Positions 6,280-52,169 of a stretch of DNA of 64,000 bases are shown here, piece by piece. Position numbers and translations under genes: made by a program. The stretch comes from Clostridia bacterium (GTDB lineage Bacteria; Bacillota; Clostridia; Oscillospirales; Acutalibacteraceae), in NCBI GenBank assembly GCA_017631795.1, contig JAGBSO010000022.1, forward strand, positions 62,001 to 126,000, in the 5' to 3' direction. Numbering within the stretch: position 1 is the stretch's first letter; the number at the start of each line of letters is the position of its first letter. The notes below the pieces were generated by a model. That model saw only the letters and a list, made by a program, of their open reading frames with translations, searched no databases and was not told where the DNA came from.

Positions 6280-6295
6280 TATAAAAATCCTTTTC

Positions 6296-7027: not shown

Positions 7028-8672
7028 ATGTTTCTTTAAAATGATCGAGAATTGCAGCAACTCGCAATGTTTTTCTTGCATCAGCGGCATTTACTTTTCC
7101 GTCAAGATTAACGTCTGCAGCTGTGTAATACACACCTGTAAGTTCTTCAATTTTTGCAGATGCACGAAGAATAAGTCTGGCATCAGCTGCATTTATTTTT
7201 CCATCAGAATCTATGTCACCGGTTACACTTATATAGTAGTTTGTGACATCGCCTTCAGGAGATTCATGATTCAGTCTGCAACCTGTTGTTATATAATCTT
7301 CTTCATTCAGCATGATATTGTTTTCATCATAAACAACAAATGAACTGCTGTTTGTAAAACATGCAAGAAAATCACCGATAAGCATGTTTTTTGCCACATT
7401 TGAAATAATAAGATTTTCGTGATCGACTTTTATAACAGTATTTTCAACGGGGATGATTTTATGAATTTTGTTTGAAATCTGAGAATCATCACCGATATTT
7501 CCGTTTCCGTTGCTTTCACCGAAAACAATAACTGTTACATACTCATTTCCGCATTCGGTACAGATATATTTTACCTGTGCTGAGAGACCGTCTGCTGATT
7601 CTTTTATAACTTCATAAGTATCAGGATATACGTGACCTGCTTTTCCGATCATTGTGGAAACAGAAGCTTTTCCGCAAAGTGTACACACTTTGTGTTTGAG
7701 ACCTGTTGATGAACATGTTGCTTCTTTTGTGACAATCCACTCATCAGAATATGTATGAGCATCGGGAGCAAGATTAATGGGCAATACATCTGTTCTTTCA
7801 TCACAATAAATGCAATGTTTTGACATTTCACCCGCTGATATACAATCAGCTTCTTTATCTATGGTATATTCATCAGAGAAAGTATGTTTATCAGGCATTA
7901 CGGGAATTGATGCTTCATCAAAAGGAGCATCACAGACTGTACAATGTCGTGATATCACACCTTCTGATATACAGGTTGACTCTGTATCAATTGTCCATTC
8001 ATCGCTGAGTGTATGTTTTCCCGTAGCAGGTACAACTCTTCTCTCTGCTTCATTGCCGCATATATCACAATTTGTGACCATTATTCCGTCTTTTGCACAT
8101 TCGGGAAGCACGATGACTTTCCACTGTGAATTTTCAGTTATCACATGTTTTTCACTGTCTGCAGGAATTTCTTCTTCACCGAAATATCCGTTACAATGCT
8201 TACACTCATAAGCTTTCACACCAGCTGTAAGACATGTTTCGGGAGTTACCACAACATATCCGCCTTTTGCAGTATGTGCATCAGGCTCAGCAGGAACCTC
8301 TGTTACTTCAGCAGCAGAATTACAGCCTGAACAGATTCTGAACTTAACACCGGGTGTGACACAAGTGGGTTTAGGATCATAAGTCCAATAAGATGATAAC
8401 TGTGAATGATTATCGGGATCTTCAGGAATTGTGACAATATCCTTGGCACTGCAAATAACACAGCTTCTGTACTTTGTGCCTGTTGATGAACAATTTGCAG
8501 GTTTTGCGATTATATACTCACCGCCGTTTGCATAAACATGATTTTCACATGAGTCACTACCTGCCATTGCATTTTCAGAAACTGTATCAACATCAACAGT
8601 CACAGCACCGATAATTACGATGCAAAGCACTGCTATTATTCCTGTTGCGATAAAACTTACAAAACGTTTCAT
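7017..8672 (-). CDS. Secreted dockerin protein with eight CxxC repeats
   Basis: 551 residues. N-terminal signal/transmembrane segment (KRFVSFIATGIIAVLCIVII), then about eight repeats of roughly 45 residues, each with TC-x3-G-x5-C-x2-C followed by a Pro-Asp/His spacer. The last repeat is degenerate. A small beta domain follows (about 390-470). It ends in a type I dockerin with two calcium-loop halves, GDIDSDGKINAADARLILR and ADVNLDGKVNAADARKTLR. The dockerin should attach the protein to a cohesin scaffold outside the cell. The CxxC repeats could bind metal or form disulfides. Start 8672 is chosen over 8681 because GGAGG lies 9 bases before it. Oddly, it leads an operon with two RNA methyltransferase genes. 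Confidence 0.85.
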   Translation of the reverse strand: MKRFVSFIATGIIAVLCIVIIGAVTVDVDTVSENAMAGSDSCENHVYANGGEYIIAKPANCSSTGTKYRSCVICSAKDIVTIPEDPDNHSQLSSYWTYDPKPTCVTPGVKFRICSGCNSAAEVTEVPAEPDAHTAKGGYVVVTPETCLTAGVKAYECKHCNGYFGEEEIPADSEKHVITENSQWKVIVLPECAKDGIMVTNCDICGNEAERRVVPATGKHTLSDEWTIDTESTCISEGVISRHCTVCDAPFDEASIPVMPDKHTFSDEYTIDKEADCISAGEMSKHCIYCDERTDVLPINLAPDAHTYSDEWIVTKEATCSSTGLKHKVCTLCGKASVSTMIGKAGHVYPDTYEVIKESADGLSAQVKYICTECGNEYVTVIVFGESNGNGNIGDDSQISNKIHKIIPVENTVIKVDHENLIISNVAKNMLIGDFLACFTNSSSFVVYDENNIMLNEEDYITTGCRLNHESPEGDVTNYYISVTGDIDSDGKINAADARLILRASAKIEELTGVYYTAADVNLDGKVNAADARKTLRVAAILDHFKETYEN

Positions 8673-8697
8673 ATGTATCATCCTCCATATATAAAAT

Positions 8698-8726
8698 ATA
8701 TTATCATGTTACATCTGTTAAGTCAA
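8698..8726 (-). promoter_or_regulatory. Promoter of the dockerin-yabB-like-rsmI operon
   Basis: Minus strand TTGACT (8721-8726), 17 bases, TAATAT (8698-8703), with GGAGG and the start codon immediately downstream. Confidence 0.7.
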
Positions 8727-8746
8727 CAAAAATAAAGAAAAACATA

Positions 8747-8775
8747 TTGTACATAATTGGCTTTTATGTTATGAT
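8747..8775 (+). promoter_or_regulatory. Promoter of the RluA-family gene
   Basis: TTGTAC (8747-8752), 17 bases, TATGAT (8770-8775). It lies downstream of alternative in-frame start codons and so supports the start at 8792. It is divergent from the dockerin promoter 20 bases away. Confidence 0.5.
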
Positions 8776-8791
8776 TGTCTGCGGTGATAAT

Positions 8792-9445
8792 ATGGTTAAA
8801 ATTCTGTTTGAAGACGAGCATATCATTATCTGTGAAAAACAGGTCGGTATGCTGTCTGAAGATTCAGCATCAGATGAAAGTCTGCCCAATATCCTGAAGA
8901 AACTGACAGGCGGCGAAATTTACACTCTGCACAGACTTGATAAGCCTGTGGGCGGTGTTATTATGTATGCAAAAACAAAAATAAGTGCCGCTGCTTTTTC
9001 AGCAATCATTGCAGAAAATAAACTTGAAAAAACTTATCTTGCAGTAACAGACGGTCACATTGAAAAAAAGACCGGCGAGATGCGCGATCTTTTATTTAAA
9101 GATTCACGCAAAAACAAAACTTTTGTTGTAAAACGAATGAGAAAAGGTATAAAAGAAGCCGTTCTGAATTACGAAGTCTTGCAGGAATCAGATGCATTAT
9201 CGTTTGTAAAAATCAAACTTGTGACAGGAAGATCACATCAGATAAGAGTGCAGTTTGCATCACGCAAAACTCCTCTCACCGGTGACGGAAAATACGGCAG
9301 CAGAAACAACAGATGTTCAATTGCATTGTGGTCACATTCACTGTCATTCACACATCCGCTGACTTCCGAATCAATGACCGTTTCTTCACTTCCTGACATA
9401 AATATTTACCCATGGAGTGAATTCAGAAAAGAAAGTGAAATGTAA
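8792..9445 (+). CDS. RluA-family RNA pseudouridine synthase
   Basis: 217 residues. The catalytic Asp50 lies in LHRLDKPVGGVIMYAK, a variant of HRLD-x2-TSG. The second signature is GRSHQIRVQF near 150, followed by PLTGDGKYG. There is no N-terminal S4 domain, so this is a short RluA-type enzyme. Such proteins isomerise uridines in rRNA or tRNA; the site cannot be told from the sequence. MVKILFEDEH is taken as the N-terminus because a promoter overlaps the longer frame. Its last 23 bases overlap the convergent gene on the other strand. Confidence 0.88.
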   Translation: MVKILFEDEHIIICEKQVGMLSEDSASDESLPNILKKLTGGEIYTLHRLDKPVGGVIMYAKTKISAAAFSAIIAENKLEKTYLAVTDGHIEKKTGEMRDLLFKDSRKNKTFVVKRMRKGIKEAVLNYEVLQESDALSFVKIKLVTGRSHQIRVQFASRKTPLTGDGKYGSRNNRCSIALWSHSLSFTHPLTSESMTVSSLPDINIYPWSEFRKESEM

Positions 9446-9848
9446 GTTCTTTTCCGCATTTCGGACATGTTATCTGCTTTCTGTGTTTACCCTTTTTCAG
9501 TCTGAGAAATTCACCGCAGCCTTTGCATGTTCTGAATCTGTGAGTTTTAAAGAATTTCAAACGCAATTTCATGTGTTCAATATAGGGGTTCCATGCATTG
9601 AGAAACTGCTCAAATCTGAAATTTTCACTGTATCTCTTCTGCAGATTTTTTGACAAAACACGGAAAACCGCATATGCAAGAACAGCATACTGCAAAACAG
9701 TTATTACAATATAACCTATTAAAAAATATCTGAAAAATATTTTTATGAAGCACAATGCTCCGTAAATCACAACAAGGCCTGTTGTCAATTTATCAATTCC
9801 GTTTCGTCCTGCCATAAAATTCCTGAGTTTAATAAGAAAATTCTGCAT
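9423..9848 (-). CDS. Membrane protein with C-terminal zinc ribbon
   Basis: 141 residues. Two hydrophobic helices (about 24-40 and 43-60) are followed by a basic linker and a C-terminal zinc ribbon CKGCGEF...CPKCGKEL, likely cytoplasmic. Similar small proteins are widespread hypothetical proteins in Clostridia. The partner is unknown. It converges on the pseudouridine synthase gene and overlaps it by 23 bases. Confidence 0.75.
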   Translation of the reverse strand: MQNFLIKLRNFMAGRNGIDKLTTGLVVIYGALCFIKIFFRYFLIGYIVITVLQYAVLAYAVFRVLSKNLQKRYSENFRFEQFLNAWNPYIEHMKLRLKFFKTHRFRTCKGCGEFLRLKKGKHRKQITCPKCGKELTFHFLF

Positions 9849-9885
9849 TTTTTCACTCTTTTCTGTATCTGTTCATATAATATAA

Positions 9886-9914
9886 TTGACATTATTAAAA
9901 AATAATATTATAAT
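9886..9914 (+). promoter_or_regulatory. Consensus promoter of cysK
   Basis: TTGACA (9886-9891), 17 bases, TATAAT (9909-9914): a perfect sigma-A consensus, 33 bases before the cysK start. Confidence 0.9.
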
Positions 9915-9947
9915 TTATTAGTATATGTTTGTTATGAGGTGTATATT

Positions 9948-10874
9948 ATGATATACAACAATATTCTTGAAGCAATGGGAAGCACTCCCCTTATAAGACT
10001 TTCAAAAATCGTTCCTGAAGATTCAGCAGAAATCCTCGTAAAGTATGAAGGTCTTAATGTGGGCGGTTCAATCAAAACAAGAACCGCTTTCAATATGATT
10101 AAAGAAGCTGAAAAACAGGGCAAAATCAACAAAAACACAATCATCGTTGAGCCCACAAGCGGCAATCAGGGCATCGGTCTTGCACTGGTAGGTGCAGTCA
10201 GAGGATATACAACTAAAATCATTATGCCCGACTCTGTAAGTGTTGAAAGAAGAAAACTTGTTGAGCATTATGGTGCTGAAGTTATTCTTGTGCATGACGA
10301 CGGCAACATCGGTGAATGTATTGAAAAATGTGTTCAGACCGCAATGGACATGGCAAAGGAAGACAGCAGAGTCTTTATTCCTCAGCAGTTTGAAAACGAA
10401 GCTAATCCGACTGTACACAGACATCACACAGCTCTGGAAATTCTTGAACAGACAGCAGGTGCAATTCACGGATTCTGTTCAGGTATCGGCACAGGCGGCA
10501 CAATAACAGGTATCGGTGAAGTCCTTAAAGCTCAGAATCCTGACATTGAAATCTGGGCTGTTGAGCCTGAAAACGCTGCAATTCTTGCAGGCGGAAACAT
10601 CGGCACACACCTTCAGATGGGTATAGGTGACGGTCTTATTCCTCCGATTCTCAACACAAATATTTACAATGACATCTGCATTATTACCGACGATGAAGCA
10701 ATAGGCACAGCTAAGGCACTTGCTAAAGAAGAAGGACTTATGTGCGGCATTTCAAGCGGTACAAATGTTGCAGCCGCATTGAAACTTGCAAAAAAACTCG
10801 GCAAAGGAAAAACAGTTGTAACAGTTCTTCCCGACACTGCAGAAAGATATTTCTCAACACCGCTTTTTGATTAA
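9948..10874 (+). CDS. cysK: Cysteine synthase A (O-acetylserine sulfhydrylase)
   Basis: 308 residues, the typical CysK length. The PLP lysine is Lys43 in NVGGSIKTRTAFNM. The substrate-loop motif PTSGNQG is at 69-75, the phosphate-binding loop GIGTGGTITG near 177-186, and the C-terminal ERYFSTPLF is characteristic of CysK. It makes L-cysteine from O-acetylserine and sulfide. Start 9948 is preceded by GAGG; an upstream in-frame GTG at 9939 overlaps that box and is rejected. It is a single-gene unit with its own consensus promoter and terminator. No cysE or T-box leader is visible. Confidence 0.95.
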   Translation: MIYNNILEAMGSTPLIRLSKIVPEDSAEILVKYEGLNVGGSIKTRTAFNMIKEAEKQGKINKNTIIVEPTSGNQGIGLALVGAVRGYTTKIIMPDSVSVERRKLVEHYGAEVILVHDDGNIGECIEKCVQTAMDMAKEDSRVFIPQQFENEANPTVHRHHTALEILEQTAGAIHGFCSGIGTGGTITGIGEVLKAQNPDIEIWAVEPENAAILAGGNIGTHLQMGIGDGLIPPILNTNIYNDICIITDDEAIGTAKALAKEEGLMCGISSGTNVAAALKLAKKLGKGKTVVTVLPDTAERYFSTPLFD

Positions 10875-38698: not shown

Positions 38699-40021
38699 TT
38701 ACTTTATGACATTGTAGATTTCTACTGCAACTTCTGCTCTTGTAACAGTCTTGAAAGCATTGCCTGAAAGCACAAGTTTCACGGCTGAAACAAAGAACTT
38801 GAACATATCAACAAAGCTTGCATCGCCTGAAAGATTGAATAATGCTTTGCTGAGATTAAGCTTTGTAACTTCATCTGCGCTGTCTGTTACTGCGTATGTG
38901 CCTGTAACATTATTAAGGATTTCTGACAATTCAGCCATTGTGATTTTAGCATCTGCACCGAAAGCTGTTTCATCAATGCTGTTCATATATCCGTTGAGAT
39001 ACATATACTCAGCAGCTTTATAATAAGGTGCTCTGATTGAAACGTCTGAGAATGAGAATCTTGCATCGGGAAGTTCTTCAAGAATTCTGTCTGCAATGTG
39101 TCTGTGACCTGCTTTTGTGGGATGGCAAATTTCAACAACAGTACCTGTTGTGTCAACATAGACATAACCGTATTTTTCCTGATTGTCGATCATGTGCTTG
39201 TTACCGTAAGCAATCATTGCATCTTCAAACAGCTTTGATACAGCATCAGGCTCTGAAACAACATCAGGTGCACCTTCTTCTGTCTTAAGGTATGTGGGGA
39301 ACATGCCGACTGCAACAACTGTTACATCAGGATTGTTTTCATAGATGTATTCAATGATGTATTCCCAGTTTTTATTAAGGTTTGAGAAAGCATAATAAGC
39401 TGCTTCGGGAAGAACTGCTGCGATATCGTCAAGAGCATTGAGATAATCTGCAAGTTCAATGATTTTGCCGATGATATCATCTTCAAAAGTTGCTTTTTCA
39501 AGGAACTCTCTGAGCTGAGTTCTGAACTCTTCAGGAAGACGATTTGCGAACTGAACATCTTCAAGAGTCCAACCGAGATATGCACCCCAGTCATTACCGC
39601 CGATACCGATAATGATAAGATCTGATTCTGCAATACCCTGACGCATTTCAGGAGATTTTGCAAGGATTTCATCTTTGGGTGTACGAGGAACCTCAGTGAA
39701 AAGATAAGGATCATCTACGGGATTGTAGTTATCATCAAGCATGCAACGAAGCTCGATTGTTCTGAAACCGGGACAAGCCATAGGAAGGAATTCTGCACCG
39801 AGATCATCTGCAACGTATGCTGCATAAGAATCATCAACTCGAGTGAATTCGCTCATTTCATCGCCGTAATCAGTGAATCCGCTGGCTTCACTGTCACCGA
39901 GAAGCATTACTTTTTTGTATTCATGATACTGTTTTTCACCGTCAGCCGCAAAGCACACGAATGAACCTGAAACAAGTATAAGTGTGAGCAGAACAGCTAT
40001 TGTTCTTTTCAAAGTTTTCAT
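38699..40021 (-). CDS. Secreted SGNH hydrolase with SLH-like C-terminus (copy 1)
   Basis: 440 residues. A signal peptide (TLKRTIAVLLTLILVSGSF) ends before AADGEK. The SGNH domain has catalytic Ser44 in LLGDSEASGF, block III GIGGNDWGAY, and the C-terminal His in EICHPTKAGH, where Glu replaces the common Asp of the DxxH block. After FSFSDV (about 335) come SLH-like segments (YKAAEYMYLNGYMNS... and TRAEVAVEIYNVI). Probably an esterase that deacylates or deacetylates cell-surface or dietary polysaccharide, held in the wall. Tandem paralogue of the next gene; the two leaders are almost identical in DNA. Confidence 0.85.
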   Translation of the reverse strand: MKTLKRTIAVLLTLILVSGSFVCFAADGEKQYHEYKKVMLLGDSEASGFTDYGDEMSEFTRVDDSYAAYVADDLGAEFLPMACPGFRTIELRCMLDDNYNPVDDPYLFTEVPRTPKDEILAKSPEMRQGIAESDLIIIGIGGNDWGAYLGWTLEDVQFANRLPEEFRTQLREFLEKATFEDDIIGKIIELADYLNALDDIAAVLPEAAYYAFSNLNKNWEYIIEYIYENNPDVTVVAVGMFPTYLKTEEGAPDVVSEPDAVSKLFEDAMIAYGNKHMIDNQEKYGYVYVDTTGTVVEICHPTKAGHRHIADRILEELPDARFSFSDVSIRAPYYKAAEYMYLNGYMNSIDETAFGADAKITMAELSEILNNVTGTYAVTDSADEVTKLNLSKALFNLSGDASFVDMFKFFVSAVKLVLSGNAFKTVTRAEVAVEIYNVIK

Positions 40022-40039
40022 GGTTTTCTGCCTCCGTTA

Positions 40040-40086
40040 AACAACAAATGTATGGCAACATCATAACAGACAATGTTACCATACAT
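40040..40086 (-). terminator. Terminator-like hairpin between the SGNH paralogues
   Basis: A 13-base stem with one wobble (40049-40061 with 40073-40085) is followed on the minus strand by TTTGTTGTTT. Partial read-through into copy 1 is possible, since no strong separate promoter was found. Confidence 0.65.
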
Positions 40087-40094
40087 CAATTACA

Positions 40095-41417
40095 TTATTT
40101 TATAATCTGATAGATTTCGATTGCAGCTTCTGCTCTTGTGACAGCCTTGAAACCGTTACCTGACAATACAAGCTTAATCATTGCAATAAAATGTTTGAAC
40201 AGGCTGATAATACCAGTGTCACCTGAGATATTATACACAGCATTAGAAAGTTCAAGCTTTGTGACTTCACTTGTGCTGTCTGTTACAGAATATGAACCTG
40301 TAACCTTATTGAGAATTTCTGAGAATTCAGCCTTTGTGATCTTTGCATCACCGCCGAATGTTGTTTCGCTGATGCTGTTCATGTAACCGTTGAGATACAT
40401 ATATTCCATTGCACCGTATGCGGGGTATTTGAATTCAACGTCTGAGAATGAGAATCTTGCATCGGGAAGAGCTTCGAGGATTCTGTCTGCAATGTGTCTG
40501 TGGCCTGCTGCTGTGGGATGAGCAGTTTCAACGATTGTACCTGTTGTATCAACATAGATATAACCGTACTTTTCCTGATTGTCGATCATGGGCTTGTTGC
40601 CGTTGTCAATCATCATCTGTTCAACTTTGACTGCAAGAGGATCGGGCTCTGCAACGTTATCAGGCTCACCTTCGGGAGTTGAAAGAGTTGTGTTGAACAT
40701 ACCGACTGCAACAAGAGTTACATCAGGATTCAATCTGTAGATGTCTTCTACAATAATAGGCCAGTTCTCGTTAAGAGTTGAGAATGCGTATTCGATTGCT
40801 TTGGGCATGATTGCAAGGAATTCCTCAACAGCATTGAATGTCTGAGCAAGCTCAACCATTGTTTTGATTACATTGTCTTCAAGAGAAGCTTTTGCAAGAT
40901 ATTCTCTGAGAGCAGCTTCAAATTCTTCGGGAAGAGGATGGTCTTCGATGAAGTCTTCCATAACCCAGCCGAGATATGCGCCCCAGTCATTACCGCCGAT
41001 TGCGATAGTGATAAGGTCTGCTTCTGCAATAGCCTGACGCATTTCATCTTTTTTTGCCAAGATTTCTTCAGCTGAATGATGAGGTACTGCTTCAAAAAGA
41101 TAGGGATCGTTTGAAACATAGTCATCTTCAAGCATTGTACGAAGTTCAATTGTTCTGAAACCGGGACATGCCATGGGCGTATACTGTTCAACACCAAGGT
41201 CTTTTGCAAGGTATGCAGCATATGAATCTTCAACATAAGTGAATTCACTCATGATGTAATCATAATCTCTGAAACCGCTTGCCAGGCTATCGCCTAAAAG
41301 CACAGACTTAGTGTATTTGTGGTACTGTTTTTCGCCGTCAGCCGCAAAACACACGAATGAACTTGAAACAAGTATAAGTGTGAGCAGAACAGCTATTGTT
41401 CTTTTCAAAGTTTTCAT
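40095..41417 (-). CDS. Secreted SGNH hydrolase with SLH-like C-terminus (copy 2)
   Basis: 440 residues, collinear with copy 1. Signal peptide, catalytic Ser in VLLGDSLASGF, IAIGGNDWGAYLGW, and ETAHPTAAGH near 320 (again Glu in place of Asp in DxxH). SLH-like segments follow (YGAMEYMYLNGYMNSI; KAEFSEILNK; TRAEAAIEIYQII). It keeps the canonical GDSL, unlike copy 1 (GDSE). Likely secreted, wall-associated esterase. Promoter at 41450-41478 and a GGAGG box before the ATG. Confidence 0.85.
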   Translation of the reverse strand: MKTLKRTIAVLLTLILVSSSFVCFAADGEKQYHKYTKSVLLGDSLASGFRDYDYIMSEFTYVEDSYAAYLAKDLGVEQYTPMACPGFRTIELRTMLEDDYVSNDPYLFEAVPHHSAEEILAKKDEMRQAIAEADLITIAIGGNDWGAYLGWVMEDFIEDHPLPEEFEAALREYLAKASLEDNVIKTMVELAQTFNAVEEFLAIMPKAIEYAFSTLNENWPIIVEDIYRLNPDVTLVAVGMFNTTLSTPEGEPDNVAEPDPLAVKVEQMMIDNGNKPMIDNQEKYGYIYVDTTGTIVETAHPTAAGHRHIADRILEALPDARFSFSDVEFKYPAYGAMEYMYLNGYMNSISETTFGGDAKITKAEFSEILNKVTGSYSVTDSTSEVTKLELSNAVYNISGDTGIISLFKHFIAMIKLVLSGNGFKAVTRAEAAIEIYQIIK

Positions 41418-42383: not shown

Positions 42384-42866
42384 ATGACCGACAAAGAACT
42401 CAGAAAACTCAGCAGACTTGAACTTCTCGAGCTTTTACTTAAAGAAAGCAGTGAGAATCAGAAACTGCGTGAAGAACTTAACAAATTAAAAAGCGAAAAC
42501 AAGATTGAAAAAACTGCTGAAAGACTTACGGAAACTGCAGACAATCTTGATTCATCAATACAAAATATTGAAACTATCATACAAAATCTGATTGCAGACA
42601 AAAATACTGAATCAGCGAAAGATTCCGAAGCAGAATCTGAAACTGAAGTTATTGACGAAACGGAAACTACCGACAATCCCGAATCCGATATTCAAAAGCA
42701 AAAAAAGAATTCGGAAGACGCAGATATATACAGACGTTTTATGCAGTTTTTCTATTACAACAGAAACAACCTTGTTTTTCTTCCCGATGACCTGCGTAAA
42801 GACGTAACAAGACGTTTATCTGAGATCATGGAAAATGCACAGTCAAAAAAATCAGACGATGATTAA
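42384..42866 (+). CDS. Coiled-coil hypothetical protein at the head of the pilus operon
   Basis: 160 residues, very acidic and Lys-rich. The N-terminal coiled coil (TDKELRKLSRLELLELLLKE, to about 60) is followed by a low-complexity acidic linker (about 70-115) and a short C-terminal helical part (YRRFMQFFYYNRNNLVFLP). No signal peptide or transmembrane segment, so cytoplasmic. It is 32 bases upstream of the signal peptidase gene and appears to be part of the pilus transcript. Homologous small proteins accompany pilus loci in other gut Clostridia as far as I recall, but the function is unknown. Confidence 0.7.
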   Translation: MTDKELRKLSRLELLELLLKESSENQKLREELNKLKSENKIEKTAERLTETADNLDSSIQNIETIIQNLIADKNTESAKDSEAESETEVIDETETTDNPESDIQKQKKNSEDADIYRRFMQFFYYNRNNLVFLPDDLRKDVTRRLSEIMENAQSKKSDDD

Positions 42867-42898: not shown

Positions 42899-43492
42899 AT
42901 GGCAAGAAAAAAATCTGTAAAATCTTTTGCTTTTCCTACAGTTGAGCAGATCGAAAAGGAAATTGCAAGAGAAAAATATAACCGCAAATATAAAAAAGTG
43001 CTCAAAAGCACAATGGCTTCGCTGATTGTTGTTGCAGCTATTGCAGTGCTTATTGCAACACTCGCACTTCCTGTTCTGCAAATCAAAGGAAGCAGCATGG
43101 AGCCCACTCTGAATGATGAAGAAATCGTCATTCTTCTGAAAACACCAAATCTGAAAAGAGGTCAGCTATGCTGCTTTTCTTATCAGAACAAACTGCTGAT
43201 TAAACGAGTAATCGGTATACCCGGTGACAGTATATCCATACACGAAGACGGAACGGTTTATCTTAACGGCAGTGCACTGGACGAGCCCTATGTAATAGAC
43301 AAAGCATTGGGTGAATGCGATATCAATTTCCCCGTGAATGTCACGGATAATCACTATTTCATTCTCGGCGATCACAGATCAACATCCATCGACAGCAGAA
43401 ACTCTGTTGTGGGACTGATAAGTGAAGAACAGATTGTGGGAAGAATCTTTTTCCGTATCTGGCCGTTTGAATCAATAGGCCATGTAGAATAA
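42899..43492 (+). CDS. lepB: Signal peptidase I of the pilus locus
   Basis: 197 residues. One N-terminal membrane helix (about 36-60), catalytic Ser66 in KGSSMEPTL, Lys102 in LLIKRVIGIPGDSI, and the closing box GDHRSTSIDSRNSVVG near 157-172. AGGAG lies 10 bases before the ATG. Signal peptidase I enzymes inside sortase-pilus operons (SipA type) either mature or chaperone pilins. Here both the Ser and Lys are kept, so it should be active, unlike SipA of group A Streptococcus in which catalytic residues differ. Confidence 0.92.
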   Translation: MARKKSVKSFAFPTVEQIEKEIAREKYNRKYKKVLKSTMASLIVVAAIAVLIATLALPVLQIKGSSMEPTLNDEEIVILLKTPNLKRGQLCCFSYQNKLLIKRVIGIPGDSISIHEDGTVYLNGSALDEPYVIDKALGECDINFPVNVTDNHYFILGDHRSTSIDSRNSVVGLISEEQIVGRIFFRIWPFESIGHVE

Positions 43493-43530: not shown

Positions 43531-46500
43531 TTGACAGATTTCAACAATGAATTTCTTGAAGAACACAAGCATTTCAGAATAAAAAATAAAAAACTGTATT
43601 TCACATTCCTGGTATCTGCTGTCCTTGTTGCAATTATAGTTTTCTGGTGTCTGAAACTTGTCGGCATCACCATTACGGGCGATGCATTCTGCGGACTTGA
43701 TGAACACTCTCATTCCGAAGAATGTTACGACACACAGCTCATATGCAACTCTTCAGATGAAGAAATGTCAATCGGTGCAGGCGGAGACATTCACAATCAC
43801 GACAACTCCTGCTACAACAACATTCTCATCTGCACAAAAACAGAGCACACACATTCATCTGAATGTTTTCCCGATAACACAGCTGATGTCGAAACGGTAA
43901 GCGACTGGCTGAGTACATTCAGCGATGTTGAGATAACAAACAGTGTATCAGACAACATTACAGCAATTGCCGTTACACAGATAGGTTACAATGAAAGTGT
44001 GCGCAATTTTGAGCTTGACAGTACCGGAAACAAACACGGTTACACACGTTACGGTGAATGGTACGGCAATCCTTATGCCGAATGGAATACATTATTCGTA
44101 TCATTCTGTCTTAACTATGCAAACGCAAATGATTCCGATTCTCTTGAAAGTGCAAACGCAGAAATAATGAGAACGGAATGGGATAAAAAGCATATTTATT
44201 CTTCTGCTGAAAACTATCATGCTCAAAAAGGTGACATTGTATTTTTTGACCTTGATTCCGACTCAAAAGCTGACCGCACAGGCATTGTGCTTTATAACGG
44301 TCCGGAAACACTTGTAGTTATTGAAGGCGATGTGCAGGGCACAGCCGACAAAGTTGTTTACACAGACAGAGAAAACATTATCGGCTACGGTATGACAAGT
44401 GAGCTTTACGCTGCAAACCATCTTACCGAAAGCACATCTCAGGAAGACACATCTTCAGATAAATCAGAAAAGACTGATTCTTCGGGAATTGTCAAGCACT
44501 ATATCAAACAAGAAAATACCGGCAAAACAGAAAATACAGCTAGTACCACACAGTCTCAGTCAGAAAAACAGGATATATTCAACAGCGGACCGCTTACCAC
44601 ATTCTCAACTACGAGATCAACCATTGATTACACTTATCATCTTGAAGGCGAGCTTGTTGATGCGGTATTCAAAGATCAGGCAGGTGAGATTCTCGGGAAC
44701 GGATCATCTGTCTATATAGGTCAGACCTATACCGTTTCGCTTGAATTCTGCGAAATCAATACGGGCAGCAACTGGATTCAGTTCAGACACAATGAAGACG
44801 GTTATCTGACTTATCACATTCCTGAAAGTATTCACTGCGAACCTTTTACAAGCTGGCATCCTATCTCTGCCACAACAGAAAACGGCACAATTGAAAACGT
44901 AGGTGAATATTTTGTTGATGAATCCGGTCTTCTCCGTGTAAAATTCTTCAACGACGAAAACGGTGTCAATTTCGTTGAAAAATACACAAACGTTGACTTC
45001 TCTATCGATTTTGATGCAACCGTTGCGTCAACCCAGTCAGGTTCATCAACAGAAGTTGTTTTCAATGACAAAATCAAAGTCAACCTTACTGTTGACGGTA
45101 CTGCTGCGATGAGCGTTTCAAAAACACACGGAGAATATGACAGCGAAACTCATACAATGGAATATACTATCAGAGTTGAATCCACAAAAGGTGTTGTAAA
45201 AGATCTTGTTATTGATGACCAGATATGGGATACACATTTTACACTCAGAGATACCATTCTGGTGACCGACCTTGACGGAAATATTCTTGATCCGCAGCCT
45301 GTAGTCAGCAACCATCCGTCACATAACAGCGGTGCAGACGAAGGATTCCGTATTTCAGGTTTCCCCGATTTCCAGCAAGGTCAGGGATTCCTTATCACTT
45401 ACAAAACTCAGATATATGATTATCTGCTTTCAAATGAATCTGTCAGTTTATGGAACGGTCTTGACTCTACCGCAAAAGACACAATCGGAAACACCTTATA
45501 TCAGTGGTCTGAAGACTGGACCAGAATAGAGCTTGAAAAAATCTCAAAAGACGGCAAACAATCTGTTCTGACAGATTCAGCAGGCAACACAATTCCCGTA
45601 ATTGAATGGGAAGTTGCAATAATCAAAAACAACCACAATCTTCAGGGCACCGTTGTTATTGACACACTCGGTGAAGGTCTTGCCTATTACACAGACAAGA
45701 GCATTCATATCAGGCGTTATGACGAATGGGGCAACAGACTTTCTGATGTAAATCTGAGCTGGAATGATGTTACAATCAACGGCAACTCAATGAGTTTTGC
45801 ACTTCCTGACGGATATGCATTTGATATATTCTACTACACCACATATGAAGACCTTGATGACGGCGAAGAAAAACACTATACAAACAGTGTAAAAGCAACC
45901 ATCAACGGTAAAGAAGAAACTGCAGGCGGCGCTGCCGATGTTGTAGGTTTCATTCCGAGAGTAGGAAAAAGTGCAAGCGGTGACGACGGAGAATACATAT
46001 ACTTCACAATTGAAGCTGATGTTCCCTCCGTTATAAAAAACTGGGGTAATTTCTATCTTACCGACCTTTCGGCATTCTGGAGTTACAATAACGATGTCGG
46101 TTACCTTTACGTAGAAAACAATCCTGAAGACGTTGTCATTACAGCAACAACAGAAAGCGGACAGACAATAACGTTCACACCGTATGTTGAAGGCGGTCCG
46201 ATAGAAAACACATATATTCTCGTTGCCCCTGCAGGCGGAGATCAGTATCACAGTTTCAACATCTTTTTCAACACAGCTGTTGCGGATATACCGTCATCAA
46301 AGTGGATTCTGGATGAAAATTCAACACTTACAATCACATACAAACTCCCCTTTGATTCAAAAACAGGTATCGAATGGGAAGGTGAACTCACAGGCGGTAT
46401 CACAGTGGAAGATGCACTGCTGAACGGTTATACTCTGGCAAATGAAGCTTTCCTGAACTATACAGATGTTATCAGCGGAACAGGCGTTGCAAGTTATGAC

Positions 46501-47964
46501 TATTCCCCCCTGATTACAAAAAAAGCAGTTGTAAAAGACAACGGAACAATTGATTATACTGTTGTTTTCCGTAATACAATTCCCGGTTCTTACGGTTCTT
46601 CGGGATATATCAACAGCACAACAGATATGCTGTACTTCAATGATACTTTTGATGAACGTCTTGAATATGTTCCCGGATCACTTAAAGTAACATGTTACGA
46701 TCCCTGGAGAAACTACTTATGGCTGAATAAATACACATACAACGGAACGGTTTCAGGCAATTCAATGAGTATTCCTGCAAATCAGATACTGTTTTCAGAA
46801 TCAAATCCTGAAGCTTCAGCCATAGGTTGGGGAAATCTCAGCGGCATGAATACACTGCAGAAATATTATCAATGGACAAATGCAGGCGGTAACTATGAAT
46901 TCACTTACTCACTGAGAGTCAAAGATGAATATCTTTACACAACTGAACACGCAATGTTTGAACTTGATAATACGGCAGAACTGACATGGGATAAAGACGG
47001 TTCATCCGGTCCTGTTACGGAAACGGCAGAATATGAAACAGGTCTTATTGACAAACATGTTGTACAGCAAGGTACGAATCTTGACTTTGATATTCATATC
47101 AACAGAAGAGCTCTTGATATTCTTGAAGGTGTTGACACACTGACCATTGAAGACACAATGACTCACAACCTTTCTGTTTATTGGGATACGATCAGACTGC
47201 TGTATGAAGATCCGAACGGAAACTGGATAAACTTTGCAAGTGAAGAAAGTCAGTACTCATATTCGGTAACATATGACCCGCCGAACAACAAGCTGACATT
47301 TGTCATTCCCGACAGTCTTCATATAAGAATAGACTACAGCACACTGATTACAGAGAACGGTCTCGTTTCTGTAAACAATGCCGTAAAAATCGACGGTAAA
47401 GCTGAAGTTTCCGATATAATTGATGCAATATTCAAGGTTGAGGAACACAGCGGCGGTGCTTCCGGTTCGATACACAACATCACACTTCTCAAACAGGACG
47501 GAGTTACGGACCATCCTCTTCCCGGTGCAGTTTTCCTGCTTTACGGACCTATGGGTGACCCTGATGCCGTATTACCTGACGGAGTGTCACGGAGCATTGT
47601 TGCAGATAACGGTAAAGTCCTCGGTTATATCGGAATTTACACAACAGGTGACGACGGTACAGTCGAAATTGAAAACCAGTATCTTACCATGGGCGGTCCT
47701 TATGCGTTGGTTGAAAAAACTGCCCCGGCGGGATACGAGCTTCCTGACAGTCCCACATATTTCTATTTTTATGAAACAGACCCTGACGGAATAATCCAAT
47801 CCGTTACAACGCTGATAACCATTGAAAACTTTACGGGCAGTTTTATAATCCCCGAAACAGGCGGTATCGGCACTTTCCTTCCGGCAACAATCGGTTTTGC
47901 ATTGACCGCAGCTCCGATTTTGTATAGCATAATTCGTCGTAAACGGGAAAGGAGGTTTTTATAA
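43531..47964 (+). CDS. Large pilus-tip-like adhesin with IPETG sorting signal
   Basis: 1477 residues. TTG start with AAGGAGG 10 bases upstream. Transmembrane/signal segment at 21-47. Then three Cys/His modules (HSHSEECY, HNHDNSCY, HTHSSECF; 58-112). An amidase (CHAP/NlpC-like) domain follows at about 145-285, whose normal catalytic Cys and His are replaced (WNTLFVSFC and ADRTGIV). Long beta-rich stretch of Cna-type domains follows with a prealbumin-like domain near the end (LPGAVFLLYG; LVEKTAPAGYELPD = E-box). The sorting signal IPETG is at 1440-1444, with membrane helix and RRKRERR tail. Sortase would attach it at the pilus tip. Major pilin is next. Confidence 0.88.
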   Translation: MTDFNNEFLEEHKHFRIKNKKLYFTFLVSAVLVAIIVFWCLKLVGITITGDAFCGLDEHSHSEECYDTQLICNSSDEEMSIGAGGDIHNHDNSCYNNILICTKTEHTHSSECFPDNTADVETVSDWLSTFSDVEITNSVSDNITAIAVTQIGYNESVRNFELDSTGNKHGYTRYGEWYGNPYAEWNTLFVSFCLNYANANDSDSLESANAEIMRTEWDKKHIYSSAENYHAQKGDIVFFDLDSDSKADRTGIVLYNGPETLVVIEGDVQGTADKVVYTDRENIIGYGMTSELYAANHLTESTSQEDTSSDKSEKTDSSGIVKHYIKQENTGKTENTASTTQSQSEKQDIFNSGPLTTFSTTRSTIDYTYHLEGELVDAVFKDQAGEILGNGSSVYIGQTYTVSLEFCEINTGSNWIQFRHNEDGYLTYHIPESIHCEPFTSWHPISATTENGTIENVGEYFVDESGLLRVKFFNDENGVNFVEKYTNVDFSIDFDATVASTQSGSSTEVVFNDKIKVNLTVDGTAAMSVSKTHGEYDSETHTMEYTIRVESTKGVVKDLVIDDQIWDTHFTLRDTILVTDLDGNILDPQPVVSNHPSHNSGADEGFRISGFPDFQQGQGFLITYKTQIYDYLLSNESVSLWNGLDSTAKDTIGNTLYQWSEDWTRIELEKISKDGKQSVLTDSAGNTIPVIEWEVAIIKNNHNLQGTVVIDTLGEGLAYYTDKSIHIRRYDEWGNRLSDVNLSWNDVTINGNSMSFALPDGYAFDIFYYTTYEDLDDGEEKHYTNSVKATINGKEETAGGAADVVGFIPRVGKSASGDDGEYIYFTIEADVPSVIKNWGNFYLTDLSAFWSYNNDVGYLYVENNPEDVVITATTESGQTITFTPYVEGGPIENTYILVAPAGGDQYHSFNIFFNTAVADIPSSKWILDENSTLTITYKLPFDSKTGIEWEGELTGGITVEDALLNGYTLANEAFLNYTDVISGTGVASYDYSPLITKKAVVKDNGTIDYTVVFRNTIPGSYGSSGYINSTTDMLYFNDTFDERLEYVPGSLKVTCYDPWRNYLWLNKYTYNGTVSGNSMSIPANQILFSESNPEASAIGWGNLSGMNTLQKYYQWTNAGGNYEFTYSLRVKDEYLYTTEHAMFELDNTAELTWDKDGSSGPVTETAEYETGLIDKHVVQQGTNLDFDIHINRRALDILEGVDTLTIEDTMTHNLSVYWDTIRLLYEDPNGNWINFASEESQYSYSVTYDPPNNKLTFVIPDSLHIRIDYSTLITENGLVSVNNAVKIDGKAEVSDIIDAIFKVEEHSGGASGSIHNITLLKQDGVTDHPLPGAVFLLYGPMGDPDAVLPDGVSRSIVADNGKVLGYIGIYTTGDDGTVEIENQYLTMGGPYALVEKTAPAGYELPDSPTYFYFYETDPDGIIQSVTTLITIENFTGSFIIPETGGIGTFLPATIGFALTAAPILYSIIRRKRERRFL

Positions 47965-48054: not shown

Positions 48055-49509
48055 ATGAAAAAATTATTTGCAGTTTTATTGGCAATCGCTCTCGTTCTCT
48101 CAATGGGAACAATCGCTCTCGCAGCAGACACAGGCACAATCACAATCACTAATGCCGTTGACGGTGCAGACTACGAAATCTACAAGATGCTCGGCTTTGC
48201 TCCTTCAAACGCAGCAGGTGACAAAGGTATCTACACAATCGAAGCAGGTTGGGAAAATTTCTTCAGCACAGCACCTGCAACAGATTACTTTGTAGTTACA
48301 GAAAATGCAGGACAGAAAACTGTATCAGCTAAAGAAGGTGTTACTGCAGTTGACCAGACTCTTGCAAAGGCAGCTATCGCTTATGCAGAAGAAAACAGCA
48401 TTGCAGCAACAAAGACTGAAACAGCAGCAGGCGAAACTGTTGAATTCACAGGTCTTGCACTCGGCTACTATGCAATTGATACTTCTCTCGGTACTCTTTG
48501 CGCTCTTACAAACACAAATTCAGACTTCACAGCAGTTGAAAAGAACGAAAAGCCTGACATCGACAAATATGTTCAGGAAGACAGTGAAATGGCAAATGCT
48601 GACGAAGGCTGGGGCAAAGTAAACGATGCTGACATCGACCAGAAAGTCAACTACAAATCAACAGTTACTGTTGGTCTCGGTGCTACAAATTATGTAATGC
48701 ACGATACAATGGAAGCCGGTCTTACATTCAACAATGACGTTACTGTTGAGCTTGCTGACGGCACAGCAGTTGCAGCAACAAACTACACTGTAGTTTACCC
48801 CGCAACAGACGGTCATACATTTGATGTAAAATTCAACAATGATTTCATCGCAGGTCTTGCACAGGGTACAGAGTTCACAGTTTACTACTCAGCAACTCTT
48901 AATGAGAATGCAAACATCGTAACAGACGGTAACGACAACACTGTTTACCTTTCATACGGTGAAGACAGCACATGGGAAACTGCTGAACACAAGACAACAA
49001 CTTACACATGGAAGATGGATGTTCTCAAGTACACAATGGACGGCACAAACAAAGTAAGCCTTGCAGGTGCTAAATTCCAGCTTCTTGACAAAGACGGAAA
49101 CGCAATCACTTTCACACAGGTTGCAGGTGCAGCTGTTCCCACATACAAGGTAGATGCTGAAGGTACTGTTACAGAAATCACAACTGATGAAAACGGTAAA
49201 TTCGAATTCGTAGGTCTTGATGAAGGCACATACAAACTTCACGAAACAGAAGCTCCCGAAGGTTACAATAAACTCGCAGCTGATATCGAAGTTGTTATCA
49301 CAAGCACATATGATGAAGCAGCTCTTACAGCTACATACAAAATTAACAGTGCAGATCCCGCAACAATCGAAGTAGAAAACAAGACAGGTGGTCTTCTTCC
49401 CGAAACAGGCGGCATCGGTACAACAATCTTCTACGTTATCGGCGGTCTTCTTATGGTAGCAGCAGCAGTTCTTCTTATCTCAAAGAAGAGAATGGCTGCA
49501 ACAGCATGA
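48055..49509 (+). CDS. Major pilin (LPETG backbone subunit)
   Basis: 484 residues. Signal peptide (KKLFAVLLAIALVLSMGTIA), an N-terminal pilin domain with EKPDIDKYVQEDS and WGKVNDADI near 165-195, and a C-terminal Cna_B domain with the E-box HETEAPEGYNK near 400. LPETG lies at 448-452, followed by a hydrophobic helix and KKRMAATA. Unusually rich in Ala/Thr and with biased codons, as for an abundant secreted protein. Sortase C joins subunits by isopeptide bonds. No clear YPKN pilin lysine motif is seen (VVYPATDG sits at the similar place). Starts 90 bases after the tip gene with AAAGGATG as ribosome site. Confidence 0.92.
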   Translation: MKKLFAVLLAIALVLSMGTIALAADTGTITITNAVDGADYEIYKMLGFAPSNAAGDKGIYTIEAGWENFFSTAPATDYFVVTENAGQKTVSAKEGVTAVDQTLAKAAIAYAEENSIAATKTETAAGETVEFTGLALGYYAIDTSLGTLCALTNTNSDFTAVEKNEKPDIDKYVQEDSEMANADEGWGKVNDADIDQKVNYKSTVTVGLGATNYVMHDTMEAGLTFNNDVTVELADGTAVAATNYTVVYPATDGHTFDVKFNNDFIAGLAQGTEFTVYYSATLNENANIVTDGNDNTVYLSYGEDSTWETAEHKTTTYTWKMDVLKYTMDGTNKVSLAGAKFQLLDKDGNAITFTQVAGAAVPTYKVDAEGTVTEITTDENGKFEFVGLDEGTYKLHETEAPEGYNKLAADIEVVITSTYDEAALTATYKINSADPATIEVENKTGGLLPETGGIGTTIFYVIGGLLMVAAAVLLISKKRMAATA

Positions 49510-49692: not shown

Positions 49693-50565
49693 ATGGATAA
49701 AAATAAAGAAAAAACCAAAAAGAAAAAAAAGGGATACGCCTCCACTATAATTCTTGTCTCGATATTTCTTGTAGGACTGTGTATTCTGCTTTATCCGACA
49801 ATAAGCGACTTCTGGAACGAAAAGAGACAATCACAGGCAATCATCAACTACGATGACCTGATTGTTGACCTGACTCCGGAGGATTATTCGGAATATTTCA
49901 GCAAAGCAAATGAATATAACCGTAAACTCAGCCTTATTTCTTCTCCGTTTTTAGGTCACAAGAGTCTTGAAAATGAATATTACGACACTCTTGACGTAAA
50001 CGGTGACGGAATGATGGGTTATATCACTATCGAAAAAATCAAGATTCAGCTTCCGATTTATCACGGCACAAGTGATAAAGTACTCAATTCAGCCGTAGGT
50101 CATGTTGAAGGCTCAAGTCTGCCTGTCGGTGGTGCAGGTACTCACAGTGTGCTCTCTGCACACAGAGGTCTGCCGTCTGCAAAACTCTTCACAAATCTCG
50201 ACAAACTTGAAATCGGAGATATATTCACAATCCGTATCCTTGACAAAACAATAACTTATCAGGTGGATCAGATTCTTATTGTTCTTCCCGATGAAGTGAA
50301 AGATCTTTATGCTGTGCCCGGTGAAGACTACTGTACTCTTGTCACCTGCACACCATACGGCATCAACACTCACAGAATGCTTGTAAGAGGCAACAGAATT
50401 GAAAACATTGAAGAAGAAAAGAAAGTCAATGTTATCACGGAAGCATACCGCATTGATCCTCTTATTGTAACTCCTGCAGTTGCGGCACCGATGCTCGCAA
50501 TACTGCTGATATACCTGCTGGTAAAATCAGCAAAAGAAAAGAAAAAAGGTAAAAAAGAAGACTGA
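49693..50565 (+). CDS. srtC: Class C (pilin-polymerising) sortase
   Basis: 290 residues. N-terminal transmembrane helix (about 18-34) after a Lys-rich leader, MGYITIEKIKIQLPIYHGT near 108-125, catalytic His157 in SAHRGLP, Cys219 in TLVTCTPYG, and Arg228 in THRMLVRG. A second hydrophobic helix (about 257-277) near the C-terminus and a Lys-rich tail mark class C. The lid motif reads SSPF (83-86) where DPF/DPW is common. It polymerises the LPETG major pilin. Coded after the pilin and before the minor pilin gene. Confidence 0.93.
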   Translation: MDKNKEKTKKKKKGYASTIILVSIFLVGLCILLYPTISDFWNEKRQSQAIINYDDLIVDLTPEDYSEYFSKANEYNRKLSLISSPFLGHKSLENEYYDTLDVNGDGMMGYITIEKIKIQLPIYHGTSDKVLNSAVGHVEGSSLPVGGAGTHSVLSAHRGLPSAKLFTNLDKLEIGDIFTIRILDKTITYQVDQILIVLPDEVKDLYAVPGEDYCTLVTCTPYGINTHRMLVRGNRIENIEEEKKVNVITEAYRIDPLIVTPAVAAPMLAILLIYLLVKSAKEKKKGKKED

Positions 50566-50593
50566 GTTCTGAAAAAGAAAGGTGGAAACACAG

Positions 50594-51559
50594 ATGAAAA
50601 CTAAAAGATTTTTTGCATCACTACTCTTTTTAATAATGACTGCAACCATGTGTTTCCATGCATTCTCCCCTGTTGCATCTGCATTCTCTGATGAAACAGG
50701 CAGTATCTCACTGACAATCACTGATTCACAGACAGATGAAACGGTGGAAAATGTCGCTTTTCATTTATATCATGTAGCAACTGCTCGTAAACTAGGAACA
50801 GGCATAACATACAAATACAACGATCCCTATGACGAATGTAACATGCAGATGCGCAGTTTTCAGAATGAACATCTTCCATTGCATCTTCTGGTTTTCGCAG
50901 TAGAAAGATCCCTGAATTATACAAGGCTGGTATCCGACGCAAACGGAAACATTGTTTTTGATAATCTTACCCCCGGTGCCTATCTTATTGTACCTGATTA
51001 TGAAACAACACCTCATTTTACTATATCACCCTTCATTGTCAGCACACCGCTTTATGACGAAGTATCCGGCGAATGGGTATTCGATATCAATGCAACACCG
51101 AAAATCGAATACAGAGTTCCCACAGACACTCAGGAAATGACATATATCACAGTAAAAAAGCAATGGGAAAGCAAAACAGAAAATCCCGACTCGGTAACTG
51201 TCAGTCTCCTGCGTGATTTCAGAAAAGTTGAAACCGTCACACTCAGCGAAGAAAACAACTGGTCATACAGATGGGATAATCTTTCAAAAAAATATGCGTG
51301 GAATGTCATTGAAGAAAATGTACCTGACGGATATATAGTTTCCTATGACACTTCATCAAATACAGTTGTTATAACAAATGAAAAACCATTTGATGATGAA
51401 ACAACAACAAAACCCGAAGATACAACAATTCCTGATGAACTCATCGAAACAGGACAGCTCAACTGGCCTGTGCCTGTGCTTGCAACAGCCGGACTGCTGC
51501 TATTCAGTCTCGGTTGGGCAATGCTGAATCTCGGCAAAAAGACAAATGAAGAGCAATAA
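50594..51559 (+). CDS. Minor / base pilin with LIETG sorting signal
   Basis: 321 residues. Signal peptide (TKRFFASLLFLIMTATMCFH), then a Cna_B-like domain (SLTITDSQTDETVENVAFHL; DNLTPGAYLIVPD) and a second beta domain (TVKKQWESKTENPDSVTVSL... AWNVIEENVPDGY). The sorting signal LIETGQLNWPVPV is at 283-295, with a membrane helix and KK tail. The ETGQLNWPVP form differs from the ETGGIGT of the other two pilins, typical of wall-anchored base pilins. Start 50594 is preferred over GTG 50582 because GGTGG is well placed. Probably used by the second sortase. Confidence 0.85.
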   Translation: MKTKRFFASLLFLIMTATMCFHAFSPVASAFSDETGSISLTITDSQTDETVENVAFHLYHVATARKLGTGITYKYNDPYDECNMQMRSFQNEHLPLHLLVFAVERSLNYTRLVSDANGNIVFDNLTPGAYLIVPDYETTPHFTISPFIVSTPLYDEVSGEWVFDINATPKIEYRVPTDTQEMTYITVKKQWESKTENPDSVTVSLLRDFRKVETVTLSEENNWSYRWDNLSKKYAWNVIEENVPDGYIVSYDTSSNTVVITNEKPFDDETTTKPEDTTIPDELIETGQLNWPVPVLATAGLLLFSLGWAMLNLGKKTNEEQ

Positions 51560-51575
51560 TTGCAGGAGAATATAA

Positions 51576-52169
51576 ATGAAAAAAAAGTTTGCTGTTACTT
51601 TTATGGTATCAGGGATTATATGCATCTGTGTTGCCGTTGCAATTCTGATATACAATAATGCAGAAAGCAAAAAAGCTCAGCAGTACGCCGTGACAGTTAT
51701 GGACTCTATTGTGAATGTCATAAGCGAAAATGAGCAGTTGGATTATGAACAAGACCCGTTTGATACAGATATGCTCACAACAGAAATTGACGGATATGAA
51801 TATATCGGATATCTGCTGATTCCCAGAATCAATATGGAATTGCCCGTAATGGCTCAGTGGGATTATACAAGACTCAAGCTCTCCCCTTGCCGATACTACG
51901 GTTCTGTCAAAACAGACAATCTTGTGATTGCCGCTCACAATTACAGAAGTCAGTTCGGATATCTGGGCAATCTAACAGAAGGTGACATCGTGATGTTTAC
52001 GGATATGGAAGGCAAAACATTCACATATGAAGTTACTGTTGTTGAGCTCCTTCAGCCGACTGATACCGGCAAAGTAAAAGATACGGGCGATGATCTTATT
52101 CTTTACACCTGCAATTACAGAGGCGATGCAAGAATAACGGTAAGATGTTGCCGCGCAGGAAATCAATAA
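51576..52169 (+). CDS. Sortase family protein, last gene of the pilus operon
   Basis: 197 residues. N-terminal membrane helix (8-26), IGYLLIPRINMELPV near 77-91, catalytic His121 in AAHNYRSQFG, Cys179 in LYTCNYRGDARITVR and Arg190. Single membrane helix with no C-terminal helix, so it is not class C. It fits a housekeeping-like or pilus-anchoring sortase that attaches the base pilin to peptidoglycan; class is uncertain (class B/D-like). Ribosome site GCAGGAG. Its closeness to the minor pilin supports the base-anchoring role. Confidence 0.85.
   Translation: MKKKFAVTFMVSGIICICVAVAILIYNNAESKKAQQYAVTVMDSIVNVISENEQLDYEQDPFDTDMLTTEIDGYEYIGYLLIPRINMELPVMAQWDYTRLKLSPCRYYGSVKTDNLVIAAHNYRSQFGYLGNLTEGDIVMFTDMEGKTFTYEVTVVELLQPTDTGKVKDTGDDLILYTCNYRGDARITVRCCRAGNQ

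Follow-up and report, generated by a model that had tools for sequence, protein, structure and literature searches.

What does the fold of a cell-wall amidase do at the head of a sortase-assembled pilus protein once its catalytic residues have gone? The question is raised by a gene for a large LPXTG protein in a 64,000-nucleotide stretch of a Clostridia bacterium genome (contig JAGBSO010000022.1, positions 62,001 to 126,000; this whole stretch is hereafter called the window). A sequence-only reading of the stretch had described the product as a pilus-tip protein with an apparently dead CHAP/NlpC-like domain, and had suggested that the fold may have become a domain binding peptidoglycan or mucin. 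A change to a non-catalytic role fits what we find, in that about 90 distinct relatives carry the same disarmed head under purifying selection, so that the head is a long-preserved part of the protein and not a random defect. Pilus tips determine the first contact that a gut bacterium makes, and little work has been done on the sortase pili of commensal Clostridia. The features of the protein referred to below are as follows.

43531..47964, + strand: large LPXTG pilus-tip-like protein, 1477 aa, TTG start, Shine-Dalgarno sequence AAAGGAGG (open reading frame; TIGR04226, LPXTG_anchor, SpaA PF17802)
43531..43680, + strand: N-terminal signal or hydrophobic segment, residues 1–50 (sequence KNKKLYFTFLVSAVLVAIIVFWCLKLVGITITG)
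43690..43869, + strand: three C-x4/n-HxH-x3-C(Y/F) units, residues 54–113 (sequence)
43885..43908, + strand: DxE....W linker (D119, E121, W126) from the last repeat to the head (alignment)
43945..44397, + strand: CHAP/NlpC-like pseudo-amidase head, approximately residues 139–289 (AlphaFold2, Foldseek, alignments)
44086..44088, + strand: Asn186 (AAT) at the catalytic Cys position, within EW-N-TLFVSFC (alignment)
44107..44109, + strand: Cys193, invariant in dead and intact heads (alignment)
44275..44277, + strand: Arg249 (CGC) at the catalytic His position, within SKAD-R-TGIV (alignment)
44323..44331, + strand: E265-G-D267, where intact heads have EGN (third residue Asn in all 15 intact heads, Asp in 76 of the 89 dead ones)
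44581..47778, + strand: stalk, with a fimbrial/isopeptide domain at residues 995–1153, a SpaA fold at 1316–1416 and a weak collagen-binding-type match at 687–794 (Pfam/NCBIfam)
47848..47946, + strand: IPETG sorting signal (TIGR01167)

Fold and catalytic residues of the head

The AlphaFold2 model of residues 51–303, computed from a 104-sequence alignment, has a mean predicted local distance difference test score (pLDDT) of 92.5 and a predicted template modelling score of 0.82. When this model was compared with the PDB by Foldseek, peptidoglycan hydrolases came out on top, the best match being 7cfl (E 3.4e-4) and the following ones mostly hydrolases of the same fold; the matches include C. difficile Acd24020, CD630_03720, LysK CHAP, Ly7917 and PlyGRCS, with PDB entries 7cfl, 4hpe, 4csh and 5d74. 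A papain-like NlpC/CHAP fold is thus confirmed by the structure prediction and Foldseek. At the level of sequence, the Pfam scan of the window protein gave NLPC_P60 only below threshold (14.1 bits, cut-off 23), no CHAP match above the Pfam cut-off was obtained at the tip gene or elsewhere in the window genome, and a sequence search of solved structures returned no relative of the whole protein, the head profile matching only 7cfl, and weakly. The head therefore shares fold and motif order with the CHAP (PF05257) and NlpC-P60 (PF00877) hydrolases, such as 7cfl, 4csh and 5d74, but differs from them in lacking both Cys and His, in having EGD for EGN, and in falling under both Pfam cut-offs.

The replacement of the catalytic Cys and His by Asn186 and Arg249 was confirmed by alignment with intact members, all 15 of which have Cys, His, Glu and Asn in the corresponding columns. 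The window head has lost the Cys and the His and has Asp in place of the Asn, with Glu265 present. For residue counts the head set was made non-redundant at 85%, leaving 89 heads without the Cys and 15 intact ones (8 repeat-bearing and 7 repeat-less). The Cys position of the dead heads is taken by Ser in 47, Asn in 26, Asp in 14 and Ala in 2, and the His position keeps His in 9, its common replacements being Arg (20), Thr (19), Ser (17) and Ala (13). Glu is kept in 52 of the 89 and the Asn has become Asp in 76, and every Cys-bearing head, with or without repeats, also has His, Glu and Asn. By these counts the four residues behave as a unit, complete in the intact heads and released in the dead ones. 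Position 186 opens the former catalytic helix (model helix 136–146, equivalent to residues 186–196). The first turn of a helix readily accommodates small polar residues, so the choice among Ser, Asn and Asp at this position may be explained by retention of the helix and not by a new chemistry.

The intact sister proteins attain the Pfam CHAP cut-off. So does one protein with Asp at the Cys position, L120, at 38.7 bits, and the automatic label "CHAP domain-containing" on a protein without the catalytic Cys would mislead enzyme counts in metagenomes.

Ancestry, constraint and the Cys/His repeats

In a maximum-likelihood tree (quick mode, with support values from the Shimodaira–Hasegawa-like approximate likelihood ratio test, SH-aLRT), the repeat-bearing proteins group together in a single clade (SH-aLRT 99), and the intact L039, L126, L131, L110, L043, L055, L009, L010 and L105 branch near its base. 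The 104 dead proteins form a single group with support 83; L033 was labelled dead in the tree scoring, although its head is intact. A second, apparently recent loss of the Cys has occurred in L058/L162, sister to the intact L009, in which Ser replaces Cys while His, Glu and Asn are retained, and L003 represents a further separate loss outside the repeat-bearing clade. Two losses, one of them ancient, would therefore suffice within the repeat-bearing family, and three overall when L003 is counted. The intact L126, L131, L157, L158, L159 and L161 lie in the same type of pilus operon as the dead heads, and L160 does so with a changed gene order, which argues that the path led from a presumably working pilus amidase to a disarmed head and not from a stray domain. 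The family thus offers a natural comparison of intact and disarmed amidase heads in one operon slot.

Some of these relatives carry features of their own. Two proteins with intact heads have possibly adhesive additions, namely BspA-type leucine-rich repeats in L110:7296-16571 and a ricin-type lectin domain in L131:6903-12839. In L157, from the genome of the intact-head L009, the tip frame (5912-7655) stops at 581 aa, and the LPETG end lies in another frame (7636-10587); a frameshift, an assembly error or a split gene would each produce this. A separate dead CHAP-like domain, with Ser or Ala at the Cys position and Leu, Ser or Asn at the His position, is found in L003/L163 (G000:C31:45773-46402, minus strand), L164, L165 and L167, fused to SH3-like and GH25-type lysozyme domains; the copy in the window genome has a dockerin-like end. 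This fusion, with the GH25 motifs retained, is kept in three genomes of the window's genus and in one other member of the family. A dead CHAP domain on a GH25 lysozyme would make sense as a means of wall targeting, and the fusion fits the idea of dead CHAPs as wall-targeting modules.

Purifying selection acts on the dead head. The ratio of nonsynonymous to synonymous substitution rates (dN/dS) is approximately 0.07–0.25 for the head in close dead pairs and 0.13–0.20 for the stalk where it is measurable, the two being broadly alike. Invariant in the dead heads are D119, E121, A147, Q150, E155, S156, N159, R173, Y174, G175, Y182, W185, F189, C193, F238 and G266; in order of conservation the His position comes 128th among the 179 columns. 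The head is often better conserved than the stalk, and in several pairs clearly so, with strongly diverged stalks: identity between L072 and L074 is 97–98% at the N-terminus and falls to 42–59% over much of the middle, and for L117/L132 and L141/L119 the head dN is 0.13–0.19 versus a stalk dN of about 0.66–0.68. Such pairs suggest recombination or fast diversification of the stalk. A conserved head on a variable stalk would be the reverse of what is usual for the head of a host-specific adhesin, a mucin adhesin included, and suggests that the ligand or partner of the head is constant between hosts.

Upstream of the head the sequence-only reading had placed three HxH..C(Y/F) modules, and these are indeed present in residues 54–113, with HxH at 59–61, 88–90 and 106–108. 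Across the family there are 438 HxHxxxC units, 425 of which have an upstream Cys (at spacing 4 in 237 and at spacing 7 in 116), so that the unit can be refined to C-x4/7-HxH-x3-C(Y/F); in 331 of the 438 the last Cys is followed by Tyr or Phe. Copy number per protein ranges from 1 to about 16. No family matched the repeat unit in Pfam/NCBIfam scans of the window protein or Pfam scans of four relatives. With four co-conserved potential ligands (C, H, H, C), each unit suits a zinc site, and oxidised Cys pairs are equally possible. The linker residues D119 and E121 are invariant and W126 is 99% conserved in the 89 dead heads, all three being invariant in the 8 intact repeat-bearing heads. The DxE....W motif is not conserved in the repeat-less homologues, which argues that repeat and head probably form one structural unit. 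The isolated six-unit array of L108 was modelled at a pLDDT of 49 and is uninformative; the units beside the head in the window model were better modelled than this array.

Possible roles of the head: a binding module, a cap or a regulator

Taking the alignments and the tree together, we regard it as about an even prospect that the head is an ancient pseudo-amidase kept as a non-catalytic module for binding or docking. The head would descend from a cysteine amidase or peptidase of the NlpC/CHAP kind whose catalytic Cys was probably lost once in the ancestor of most of the family. Ser, Asn or Asp would then have come to begin what had been the catalytic helix, constraint on the His and Glu positions would have been lifted and the final Asn would have become Asp, while purifying selection preserved the fold together with the second Cys and the way the head contacts the Cys/His repeats. 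SrtC would bring the protein to the fibre tip, where the repeats may hold the head rigidly. At this leading end of the pilus the head, conserved but no longer cutting, would serve as a module for binding or docking. That it binds some ligand has, in our estimate, roughly an equal chance of being right or wrong; that it binds peptidoglycan in particular appears doubtful. The most natural ligand would be a cell-wall peptide of the cell itself or of a neighbouring cell, and this is the first candidate because of the ancestral substrate and because of the congeneric dead CHAP fused to a GH25-type lysozyme. For host-specific adhesion the variable middle of the stalk would be a better candidate than the head.

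Several observations weigh against this interpretation. The positions of His249 and Glu265 vary and those of Trp213 and Asn267 have changed, so the old substrate groove was not simply preserved. The conserved residues may belong to the fold and not to a binding surface, a purely structural cap would yield equal conservation, and the support for a single ancient loss of the Cys is modest (83). The head could accordingly be a stable, protease-resistant N-terminal cap, with disulfide- or metal-tied repeats, that binds nothing. Many of the conserved positions are likely to lie in the core (Q150, Y182, W185, F189, C193, G234, F238 and G266), the substitutes at position 186 are small, polar and tolerated at a helix start, and the invariant DxE....W ties the repeats to the head, as such a cap would have it. 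However, the invariance of R173, N159, E155 and S156 throughout the dead heads is not something that a pure cap requires, and the newly conserved Asp267 (76/89) suggests more than a scaffold. Neither point is decisive, and we consider the cap possible, if somewhat unlikely.

Alternatively, the dead head might steer a real wall hydrolase or guide the pilus through the wall, in the manner of the degenerate LytM factors (EnvC, NlpD, ActS and DipM), which are hydrolase-fold domains without catalysis (PMC8360153, PMC10336132). In these factors, as in the window head, a peptidoglycan-hydrolase fold has outlasted catalysis, and LytM domains that lack catalytic activity regulate hydrolases of Gram-negative bacteria (PMC10336132, PMC8416486). 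They differ in belonging to another fold family and in acting as division or envelope regulators in the Gram-negative periplasm, whereas the window head is part of a pilus subunit of gut Clostridia. Intact heads in the same kind of operon suggest that the head originally cut cell wall at the fibre's leading end, which would suit a regulator or assembly helper, but no dedicated wall-hydrolase gene was identified in the pilus operon and covalent incorporation into the pilus would take the head away from the wall. On this evidence such a role is rather improbable.

A cryptic enzyme with another nucleophile (Cys193, Ser/Asp186 or a metal) is very improbable indeed. All 89 dead heads keep Cys193, and the residue at position 186 is polar in nearly all of them, as such an enzyme might require. 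Cys193 is nevertheless ruled out as a substitute nucleophile, since it is equally invariant in the intact relatives, where it lies in the same helix as position 186, seven residues further on. Of the 89 dead heads, 80 have no His at the catalytic position, and no other His has become conserved in its stead, so that the absence of an alternative Cys/His pair, which the sequence-only reading had left to alignment, is borne out. The window head is thus probably without hydrolase activity. Finally, a sequencing error or a decaying pseudogene, conceivable in an incomplete source genome of 54 contigs, is refuted by the equal losses in about 90 distinct relatives with open frames, by the tree and by dN/dS values well below 1.

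To return to the binding module, a wider picture may tentatively be drawn, one that we would not ourselves expect to hold in full: gut Clostridia may possess a class of sortase pili with a wall-amidase head at the leading end, in a minority of lineages a working wall cutter and in most a pseudoenzyme binding peptidoglycan or a neighbouring cell, with a C-x4/7-HxH-x3-C repeat, not described before, as its metal or disulfide clamp.

The pilus operon and its distribution

The locus is a standard SpaA-type sortase-pilus operon, in which a polymerising class C sortase adjoins LPXTG pilins. The genes around the tip gene, which is third in the row, are listed here in order.

42384..42866, + strand: 160-aa coiled-coil-like protein, whose gene opens the conserved neighbourhood (relatives by phmmer close to the tip gene in 37/80 named loci)
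42899..43492, + strand: signal peptidase I, Peptidase_S26 (Pfam PF10502 E 5.8e-34, TIGR02227 E 1.6e-35; 69/80 named loci)
48055..49509, + strand: backbone pilin of the SpaH/EbpB family, LPETG (NF033902, 97.5 bits, cut-off 95)
49693..50565, + strand: class C (pilus-polymerising) sortase (NF033745, 270 bits, cut-off 160)
50582..51559, + strand: minor or basal pilin-like protein with SpaA and Cna_B domains (Pfam)
51576..52169, + strand: second sortase, SrtD-like, below class cut-offs (PF04203 E 3.1e-18; NF058671 below its cut-off)

The 80 named loci are from Clostridia, mostly metagenome-assembled genomes from the ruminant gut, and several of their contigs end early; near the tip gene they have a signal peptidase in 69, a backbone pilin in 63 and a class C sortase in 55. 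Size and gene order fit the large LPXTG protein being a tip-type subunit, and the sorting signal, the SpaA/isopeptide stalk and the SrtC operon together bear out that the head is carried by a sortase-pilus protein. The TTG start of the window gene is genuine and is preceded by the strong Shine-Dalgarno sequence given above. The suggestion that this codon lowers the dose relative to the pilin is not supported: read upstream of the shared N-terminus, the start is ATG in L064, L066, L068 and L078 and TTG in L005, L007 and L083, so that TTG is ruled out as a conserved dose control.

As in SpaA/SpaH-EbpB operons with a large tip pilin of the SpaC or RrgA type, there is a class C sortase, an LPXTG backbone, a minor pilin and a signal peptidase, and the large LPXTG protein has an Ig-like stalk. 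Known pilus tips carry vWA or thioester heads; neither was matched in the Pfam scan of the window tip protein, and its head is instead a CHAP-like pseudoenzyme with Cys/His repeats. In thioester-domain tip adhesins (Cpa and the TIE proteins) an N-terminal head stands on an isopeptide-domain stalk that is sortase-anchored. The window protein shares this plan, with a head of the CHAP/NlpC fold instead. The operon and the fold are thus of known kinds, and what appears to be new is the combination of a CHAP-type pseudoenzyme head and this repeat on sortase pili. A literature search of incomplete coverage returned no account of such a head or repeat unit, nor of pili that bear dead CHAP heads; one paper on C. 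difficile (PMC6814731) that had seemed similar deals with other proteins.

Head relatives were found in 63 of 200 genomes at the family level, 60 of 394 at the order level and 10 of 391 at the class level, in searches made at different thresholds and with repeat-less hydrolases included in the counts. Among 398 genomes at the phylum level they were found in the window's own genome only, and the repeat-bearing form looks like a trait of Clostridia. Plasmid and phage collections gave only distant CHAP genes besides one mislabelled "phage" record. This record, L156 (MT835974.1), from human faeces and deposited as "Bacteriophage sp.", is actually a sortase-pilus operon of bacterial origin that encodes this tip protein, with Asp at the Cys position, alongside a signal peptidase, a backbone pilin, SrtC and a minor pilin.

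Adjoining the pilus operon, positions 38699–41417 of the window (minus strand) encode, in tandem, two secreted GDSL-type esterase-like proteins of 440 aa that are 67% identical, and the scanned member has a weak S-layer-homology-like C-terminus.

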